From the NCBI GenBank assembly GCA_902594515.1, contig CACJML010000001.1:1-64000 (forward strand): 64,000 nt of DNA, written 5' to 3'. Position 1 is the first letter of the stretch. Each line of letters starts with the position of its first letter. Position numbers and translations under genes: made by a program. The notes under the pieces were generated by a model. That model searched no databases. It had not been told where the DNA came from and worked only from the letters and a program-made list of their open reading frames with translations. Below, in pieces: positions 16,523 to 17,630 of the stretch. Origin of the DNA: an uncultured SAR86 cluster bacterium. Lineage in GTDB: Bacteria > Pseudomonadota > Gammaproteobacteria > Magnimaribacterales > D2472.

Positions 16523-16563
16523 TTAAGATAATTATTACATATAAGATATTTGATTTTTAGAAA

Positions 16564-16613
16564 TGGTGCCCAGAGGTGGAATCGAACCACCGACACAAGG
16601 ATTTTCAGTCCTT
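16564..16613 (-). repeat. Partial tRNA-Phe copy: distal attachment site of integrated element
   Basis: Fifty bases identical to 17555-17604, i.e. the 3' part of tRNA-Phe from anticodon stem to CCA. There is no 5' half, so it is not a tRNA gene. At 16591-16619 the arms CGACACAAGGA and TCCTTGTGTCG flank the 7-base TTTTCAG (anticodon loop) as a perfect 11-bp inverted repeat, which has the form of a tyrosine-recombinase core site. Confidence 0.9.
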
Positions 16614-16658
16614 GTGTCGAAGTCGTAAACCCATATAAATATTGCGCTTAAGTGCATA

Positions 16659-16722
16659 GTGTTCATAACAGTGTTCATATTTTCATATGAAAACTAATTA
16701 AAAATTTAACACCAGTGAACAC
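16659..16722 (+). repeat. Left set of GTGTTCAT sites (arm-type-like)
   Basis: GTGTTCAT at 16659-16666 and 16671-16678, plus an inverted near-copy GTGAACAC at 16715-16722. Together with the right set (two direct and one inverted copy in mirror order) this looks like integrase arm-type or excisionase binding sites. Confidence 0.6.
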
Positions 16723-16725
16723 AAG

Positions 16726-16941
16726 TTATGACCAATCCGATTTAAAAAAATTATAGTATTTTGGTGAAGATGCACCTGCATAACTTCTTCTTTGACTGTA
16801 TTTAAGTCTTCCTTTTTCATACCTATAAACATAAGCACCTAAAGGACCCCATGCTCTAAGACATACCTCAAAGGTTCCATCCCCATAGTCATGAACCCAA
16901 AGGTTTTCATTTACTTCAGTAGTTTTTCTATTATTTTTCAT
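16726..16941 (-). CDS. Unknown 71-residue protein of the tRNA-Phe element
   Basis: Not a recognised family. The 71 residues are basic and rich in Tyr, Arg, Gly and Trp, with a central WGPLGAYVYRYEKGRLKYS and no membrane segment or signal peptide. There is no helix-turn-helix pattern that would mark it as an excisionase or AlpA-like regulator. The upstream sequence GGAGTAAT gives a ribosome site a few bases before ATG 16941. It is divergent from the other element gene, with a 237-base region between them that contains a hairpin. Its ORF length is modest, so it is supported mainly by the ribosome site and the composition. Confidence 0.55.
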   Translation of the reverse strand: MKNNRKTTEVNENLWVHDYGDGTFEVCLRAWGPLGAYVYRYEKGRLKYSQRRSYAGASSPKYYNFFKSDWS

Positions 16942-16980
16942 TATTACTCCTTTACTTGTTGATTAACCTCATCATTTTTT

Positions 16981-17006
16981 CCACCTTGCCGGAGTTGGCA
17001 GGTTGG
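16981..17006. repeat. Hairpin in the central region of the tRNA-Phe element
   Basis: CCACCTTGCC and GGCAGGTTGG form a 10-bp stem with one mismatch and one wobble around a 6-base loop. It lies between the two divergent element genes, in a spot that is GC-richer than its surroundings. It could be an operator, a small RNA end, or a replication or transfer structure; no basis to choose. Confidence 0.4.
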
Positions 17007-17178
17007 AGGAGAACTTAATCCCACTCTTGATGTGCAATTATTATAACAATTTTCAGATTGAAATTTGTGAAAAAACCCCCATATAAATAAGTGTAAAGAA
17101 AGAAATATCTTCTTATTTCAAATTCCATTACTCACATTTACATACCCAATTCCGGGTGTGTTTCTTATGGAGAAAAAT

Positions 17179-17481
17179 ATGCAAGTATTTAAATGCGAAT
17201 ACGAACTTCCCCAAGGGAAGATTAATCATAATGTTCATGTTGATTGGGATGATAAAGGCAACTTACATTTTGCTGAGCAAGATCTTGGTGATGGGGTAAG
17301 GCAATTTTGGGGAACCGAAGAGTATGAATACTTTATGATGATTCATCAAAAACATGTAGCAAAATTTATTCTTTGTTGCTTTTGGAAGGGTTTTACCTTT
17401 GAAGAAAGATTTACTGTTGCTGATTTGAGGGAATTGTGTGACAAGTATGAGATTGAATATTCAACAGATAACTGGTTTTGA
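17179..17481 (+). CDS. Unknown acidic 100-residue protein of the tRNA-Phe element
   Basis: Not a recognised family. I prefer ATG 17179 because GGAG lies six bases before it; ATG 17167 and GTG 17158 extend the frame by four and seven residues but have no ribosome site. The product is acidic and aromatic, with an N-terminal beta-like part (QVFKCEYELPQGK), HVDWDDKGNL, a central KFILCCFWKGF and a helical end (VADLRELCDKYEIEY). It has no signal peptide. As one of only two genes in an integrase-less element it is a candidate cargo (defence, immunity or regulatory) gene, but nothing in the sequence proves a function. Confidence 0.65.
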   Translation: MQVFKCEYELPQGKINHNVHVDWDDKGNLHFAEQDLGDGVRQFWGTEEYEYFMMIHQKHVAKFILCCFWKGFTFEERFTVADLRELCDKYEIEYSTDNWF

Positions 17482-17490
17482 TTAGTTTTT

Positions 17491-17524
17491 ATGAACACTA
17501 AGATCAGTGTTCATAAGTGTTCAT
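17491..17524 (+). repeat. Right set of GTGTTCAT sites (arm-type-like)
   Basis: ATGAACAC (inverted) at 17491-17498, then GTGTTCAT at 17507-17514 and 17517-17524. It has the same unit and count as the left set, with the inverted copy facing the element interior at both ends. Confidence 0.6.
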
Positions 17525-17554
17525 AAAACCAAGATTTGAGAAATGCTTTAAAAG

Positions 17555-17630
17555 TGGTGCCCAGAGGTGGAATCGAACCACCGACACAAGGATTTTCAGT
17601 CCTTTGCTCTACCGACTGAGCTATCTGGGC
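17555..17630 (-). tRNA. tRNA-Phe (GAA), CCA encoded
   Basis: Complete 76-base tRNA on the minus strand: acceptor GCCCAGA / TCTGGGC, D arm AGCTCAGTCGGTAGAGC, anticodon loop CTGAAAA giving anticodon GAA, T loop GTTCGATTCC, discriminator A and encoded CCA at 17555-17557. It serves as the attachment site of the element to its left; the part from the anticodon stem to CCA is element-borne after integration. Confidence 0.97.

Follow-up and report, generated by a model that had tools for sequence, protein, structure and literature searches.

That a tRNA anticodon stem-loop resembles an att core is established knowledge (PMC8371274), and anticodon-centred sites account for 2083 of 3919 Islander islands (PMC4383910). 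In such tRNA islands (Williams, 2002), the target tRNA is restored, its 3' fragment is displaced, and the crossover falls in the anticodon loop within a symmetric core. Small variable cassettes bounded by direct repeats of part of a tRNA gene are described in streamlined aquatic bacteria as additive flexible genomic islands, in Ca. Actinomarinales (PMC7771536) and Ca. Methylopumilus (PMC10872708); islands down to 330 bp and exchange between genera are reported, and the latter account also treats tycheposons, tRNA-associated cargo elements of marine bacteria. Also relevant are CIMEs, which retain attL and attR but lack recombinase and transfer genes and form tandem arrays, and the hitcher elements, MITEs and CALINs, which are non-autonomous and depend on an enzyme acting in trans.

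The locus considered here lies in 64,000 nucleotides of an uncultured SAR86 cluster bacterium (contig CACJML010000001.1, positions 1 to 64,000; hereafter the window) and shares the Islander features listed above. The SAR86 lineage is abundant in the surface ocean and has small genomes. The inverted repeat at 16591-16619 is probably the attL core of a 991-bp non-autonomous integrative element in tRNA-Phe (Table 1), integrated in trans by a tyrosine integrase of the lambda/P4 type.

Table 1. Features of the tRNA-Phe locus, in window coordinates.
Feature	Position	Strand	Basis
Displaced tRNA-Phe 3' part with flank	16556..16613	-	Repeats 17547-17604 directly over 58 bp
Core of the distal junction, a perfect 11-7-11 inverted repeat with its left arm from the host and its right arm from the element	16591..16619	.	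Sequence scan
7-bp overlap TTTTCAG, equal to the anticodon loop; inferred strand-exchange region, distal junction	16602..16608	.	Sequence; nearly all tRNA-Phe elements identical up to here
Integrated element without integrase, 991 bp	16602..17592	.	Direct repeat; interval census; integrase HMM; empty sites G004, G006
Putative arm-type site TGTTCATA, left pair, copy 1	16660..16667	+	Motif comparison among elements
Putative arm-type site TGTTCATA, left pair, copy 2, 12-bp spacing	16672..16679	+	Motif comparison among elements
ORF P0002, 71 aa	16726..16941	-	Purifying selection; no family assigned
SAM-I/IV riboswitch RF01725, directly upstream of P0002	16942..17038	-	74 bits, gathering 41.1
Promoter-like/leader region of P0001, conserved, with covarying hairpin (17141-17147 pairs with 17154-17160)	17073..17178	+	Leader alignment
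ORF P0001, about 100-107 aa, likely ATG 17167 or 17179	17158..17481	+	Purifying selection; no family assigned
Putative arm-type site, right end, inverted copy	17490..17497	-	Motif comparison among elements
Putative arm-type site TGTTCATA, right end	17508..17515	+	Motif comparison among elements
Putative arm-type site TGTTCATA, right end	17518..17525	+	Motif comparison among elements
Restored tRNA-Phe(GAA) gene	17555..17630	-	ARAGORN
Junction core on the tRNA side: left arm from the element, overlap 17593-17599, right arm TCCTTTGCTCT from the host	17582..17610	.	Sequence; relatives

The inverted repeat and the two junctions

A scan of the whole window for exact 11-bp arms around a 7-bp spacer returned a single perfect inverted repeat, composed of CGACACAAGGA (16591-16601), TTTTCAG (16602-16608) and TCCTTGTGTCG (16609-16619); the exact reverse-complement arms that the original prediction had placed around TTTTCAG are confirmed to the base, as is the imperfect right arm, TCCTTTGCTCT, that it had read in the core of the real tRNA (17582-17610). 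The anticodon stem of the tRNA supplies the inner 5 bp of both arms (AAGGA/TCCTT) and the anticodon loop the spacer, leaving only the outer 6 bp of each arm as symmetry beyond the tRNA stem; the attB core alone already matches at 7 of 11 arm positions. A mere hairpin (a terminator or other RNA structure) or chance symmetry might be argued from the capacity of inverted repeats to fold and from the tRNA stem that makes up about half of this one, but such a reading is scarcely credible for a repeat that is unique in the window, lies exactly at the junction and has counterparts across elements, where symmetric cores recur together with arm pairs.

The one tRNA gene found by ARAGORN is tRNA-Phe(GAA), on the minus strand at 17555-17630. 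A 58-bp direct repeat of 97% identity pairs 16556-16613 with 17547-17604, the copies being 991 bp apart, and the element between them accordingly has the layout of a tRNA island, bounded on one side by the intact tRNA and on the other by its 3' fragment. The site is empty in two relatives from the same genus, G004 and G006: the left flank, that of a Rieske-type gene, runs directly into an uninterrupted tRNA whose right arm is TCCTTTGCTCT. These relatives carry the attB that had been foretold for empty sites, and the contrary arm, TCCTTGTGTCG, was seen in neither.

The empty sites also allow the two halves of each junction to be assigned. In G004 and G006, GATTTTTAGAAA, which lies left of the distal fragment, is native host sequence, and the stretch left of the window's tRNA (ATGCTTTAA...) matches the right ends of other elements; therefore 16564-16601 is displaced host tRNA, and the working tRNA has its 3' half from the element. 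The distal junction owes its perfect symmetry to the pairing of a left arm of displaced host tRNA with a right arm from the element, and from this assignment we infer the attP core CGACACAAGGA-TTTTCAG-TCCTTGTGTCG. The proposal that attP is perfect and attB imperfect is supported: attB is observed in the empty sites and the host and element halves are assigned, the perfect attP is deduced, and a perfect core is not a rule among relatives. Of the suggestion to reconstruct attP and look for it in phage sequences, the reconstruction could be carried through, and a scan of IMG/VR with the core pattern and a free spacer found no free attP.

On the preferred reading, an integrase with core-binding and arm-binding functions, of the lambda/P4 type, would recombine this attP with attB, the anticodon stem-loop, with strand exchange taking place inside the 7 bp of the loop. 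The tRNA would be restored by the element's own copy of the 3' half, the host 3' half would be displaced to 16564, and arm sites, two on the left and three on the right, would flank the cargo. A 7-bp overlap between inverted core sites is the arrangement of islands that tyrosine integrases insert into tRNA genes, the cleavage positions here being presumptive. Integration in trans, by an enzyme that a phage or another integrative element may supply, is proposed because the element has no integrase: no recombinase was found inside the 991 bp, where an island would be expected to hold its integrase gene. The reading likewise presumes that the element can excise and that some vehicle carries it between cells.

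A whole-genome search of the window's genome (G000) found only two tyrosine recombinases, both Xer-like and of 307 aa each, which lends some weight to integration by the host's XerC/XerD, as for IMEX-type elements, and dif sites are 11-nt inverted repeats (PMC8371274). However, the dif spacer is 6 nt, whereas the locus has 7 bp, placed in a tRNA anticodon loop, and thus differs from the 11-6-11 layout of dif. Arm repeats, moreover, are not a known feature of Xer sites, and Xer-mediated integration appears very improbable.

Genes, leader region and putative arm-type repeats

Ratios of dN/dS are 0.03-0.09 for P0001, where defined, and 0.05-0.06 for P0002, and both ORFs are therefore maintained by selection. 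Structure models of the two proteins are confident (pLDDT 90 for P0001 and 86 for P0002) and gave no significant fold matches. By family, P0001 had no match in Pfam, PADLOC or NCBIfam and a single, non-significant one in PHROGs, P0002 had none in PADLOC or NCBIfam, and P0001 was not found in IMG/VR or phage records. P0001 was considered as a recombinase or directionality factor and set aside, being without family or fold support and missing from most elements.

A SAM-I/IV riboswitch precedes a small ORF in related elements as well (L081 9263-9358, L083 8239-8334 and L095 5552-5647), and a similar riboswitch is present in the G006 genome (L037 4369-4465). The leader of P0001, aligned with 26 related leaders, is conserved even where protein identity is about 35%; its hairpin shows covariation, with 20 cells holding double changes and a score reached by 0 of 500 shuffles. 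By these alignments the leader is a candidate cis-regulatory RNA.

The element also carries short, lambda-like repeats at both ends. At the right end, an inverted copy is followed after 10 bp by a direct copy, after a further 2 bp by a second direct copy, and shortly thereafter by the tRNA. A left pair of direct 8-mers, about 58 bp from the loop and spaced by 11-12 bp, occurs in 17 of 18 elements with a symmetric core (at least 7 of 11 matches) versus 1 of 15 other elements (Fisher p = 2.6e-7), and left and right arm motifs agree more within than between elements (permutation p = 0.00125, n = 10), both p values being weakened by the relatedness of elements with common ends, which leaves the units of the tests not fully independent. 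The motif itself differs among elements (TGTTCATA, TGTGCATA, TGTTCAAA, TGTTCACC and others), and in some elements such repeats are confined to one end. The integrase-bearing element L032 served as a positive control: the five copies of its own motif TGATGACTT within 17 kb all lie beside one or other of its two ends. A motif repeated on both sides of the core at fixed spacing is the layout of a lambda-type attP, in which these sites would putatively bind the integrase. Among GTDB contigs the arm pattern was found in only seven, all of them SAR86 at tRNA-Phe, and in IMG/VR it was not found.

In a second group of small elements (L106, L107, L111 and L116), a TGTGTTAA repeat set is confined to the right end, the left arm pair is missing and the core is not symmetric.

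A family of elements at tRNA-Phe in SAR86

The tRNA-Phe sequence was sought in 107 genomes of the family, all incomplete SAGs or MAGs; 93 gave a match, and about 29 of these carry one or more tRNA-Phe 3' fragments, with tandem pairs in several genomes. From this census and two further SAR86 records found by pattern (L201 and L206), 33 intervals were delimited, spanning 698-9533 bp (median 2130), of which two, in G043 (L119), are doubtful, with metabolic genes inside and one poor fragment. In all intervals bar that poor fragment, tRNA identity runs through TTTTCAG and is followed by immediate divergence, as expected for a crossover in the loop. Core symmetry among these relatives ranges from 2 to 11 of 11, the perfect core of the window being the extreme. 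Each small variable cassette is bounded by a direct repeat of part of the tRNA, as in the additive cassettes of other lineages, and the cargo includes C5 DNA methyltransferases, restriction enzymes (among them a type I system) and small exported-looking proteins, with restriction-modification genes on many of the elements.

In G005, AAGAA/TTCTT replaces AAGGA/TCCTT in the distal fragment (L031 5080-5129), a joint change on the two sides of the stem. In L119, the tRNA-Phe fragments flank amidohydrolase-like and dioxygenase-like ORFs, unlike the other intervals.

The recurrence of one anticodon-loop breakpoint bears on a purely homologous origin. Direct repeats at tRNA ends can serve as recombination substrates, and homologous recombination or segmental duplication might have copied the tRNA 3' half with no site-specific event. 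Such copying is nonetheless a most implausible source of one breakpoint seen across dozens of differing cargo contexts, in which the arm repeats keep fixed positions.

A more substantial rival, albeit still an unlikely one, is that the element is a decayed relic resembling a CIME, whose own integrase and transfer genes were deleted after integration, leaving attL, attR and some cargo. Such loss defines CIMEs, which are found arrayed in tandem with other elements (PMC5704250), and one 9.5-kb element at the same tRNA (L032 4366-13899, in G003) retains its integrase, adjoining the left core, alongside a SRAP-family gene and many small ORFs. However, the integrase HMM, which recovered this element and the phage control L177 (both among its seed sequences), detected no trace of an integrase in the remaining 32 of the 33 intervals. 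Furthermore, the small elements have compact, intact genes, under purifying selection in the two tested (P0001 and P0002), and their arm sites are intact; very similar genes reside on integrase-less elements of different genera, which makes spread in this form seem likely.

The gene comparisons behind this last point are as follows. P0001 of the window and that of AG-447-O04 (L206) share 92% DNA and 94% protein identity, whereas the neighbouring host MutY proteins of the same two genomes share only 40%; the dS of P0001 is 0.41 to AG-447-O04 and 0.75 to G005, a member of the same genus. A methyltransferase is 94% identical between the elements of G005 and G093, which belong to different genera. 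Judged from these identities, genes on integrase-less elements have crossed between genera, and since the genes compared all lie on integrase-less elements, the integrase-less form itself seems to spread; the comparison argues for this in general, while decay of an autonomous parent may still account for any single case.

Beyond the single locus, it is proposed, tentatively and at somewhat less than even confidence, that SAR86 hosts a population of miniature integrase-less elements that would be the tyrosine-recombinase counterpart of MITEs: each would possess a complete attP of core and arms, its arm motif tuned to one of several helper integrases, and the elements would spread between genera at tRNA-Phe, delivering restriction-modification or riboswitch-controlled genes.

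Neither a helper integrase nor any circular form or excised attP turned up in searches for the partners of such elements. In IMG/VR, the core, the arms, the core of a relative (TTTTCAGTTCTTGACTCG) and the G003 integrase all went without a match, this integrase having no close relative in IMG/VR or the SAR86 family, and SAR86 in the survey has almost no integrases beyond XerC/XerD. The tRNA-Phe 3' half occurs in 56 IMG/VR contigs, almost all of them with full tRNA genes and another acceptor sequence, and a DNA search of phages gave tRNA similarity only.

One marine podovirus-like contig (L177, IMGVR_UViG_3300020336_000469) encodes a T7-like RNA polymerase; its tyrosine integrase, of 288 aa, lies next to a tRNA-Phe 3' half whose core, TCCCTGTATCG, is symmetric at 9 of 11 positions. 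It was rejected as a helper on account of a tRNA acceptor sequence that differs from that of SAR86; as an analogue, it shows that a tRNA-Phe half, a symmetric core and an own integrase form a design that phages can use.

Comparison with described systems

If small integrase-less elements are SAR86's main site-specific route to restriction-modification genes, this flow will escape island finders that depend on the presence of an integrase. The arm motifs, each of which predicts an arm-binding specificity, offer a handle on helper integrases, and natural core variants from 2/11 to 11/11 at one tRNA allow the need for core symmetry to be tested.

Against the systems outlined at the outset, the differences are specific. 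Unlike Islander islands, the SAR86 element has no integrase, which the Islander search requires, so that it would miss such a class (PMC4383910). The additive cassettes use another target tRNA in other lineages, and paired arm sites, symmetric cores and left-right motif matching are not described in the available parts of those accounts (PMC7771536; PMC10872708). Tycheposons are described as measuring 4-200 kb and having their own tyrosine recombinase (PMC10872708), which the 991-bp element does not. CIMEs share with this element the retention of attL and attR and the absence of recombinase and transfer genes, but are by definition what remains after decay of an ICE or IME (PMC5704250), whereas in SAR86 the integrase-less form is dominant and compact, with genes common across genera; no ICE or IME remnants were seen in the SAR86 elements, and the sharing across genera argues against an origin by decay. 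MITEs and CALINs rely on transposases or integron integrases (PMC11389934), in contrast to the tRNA-targeting tyrosine integrase proposed here.

No description of lineage-wide integrase-less elements with complete, end-matched arms at one tRNA in SAR86 was found in open-access full text. The crossover itself follows the textbook mechanism, and tRNA cassettes have precedents elsewhere; what appears new is the integrase-less attP anatomy in SAR86.
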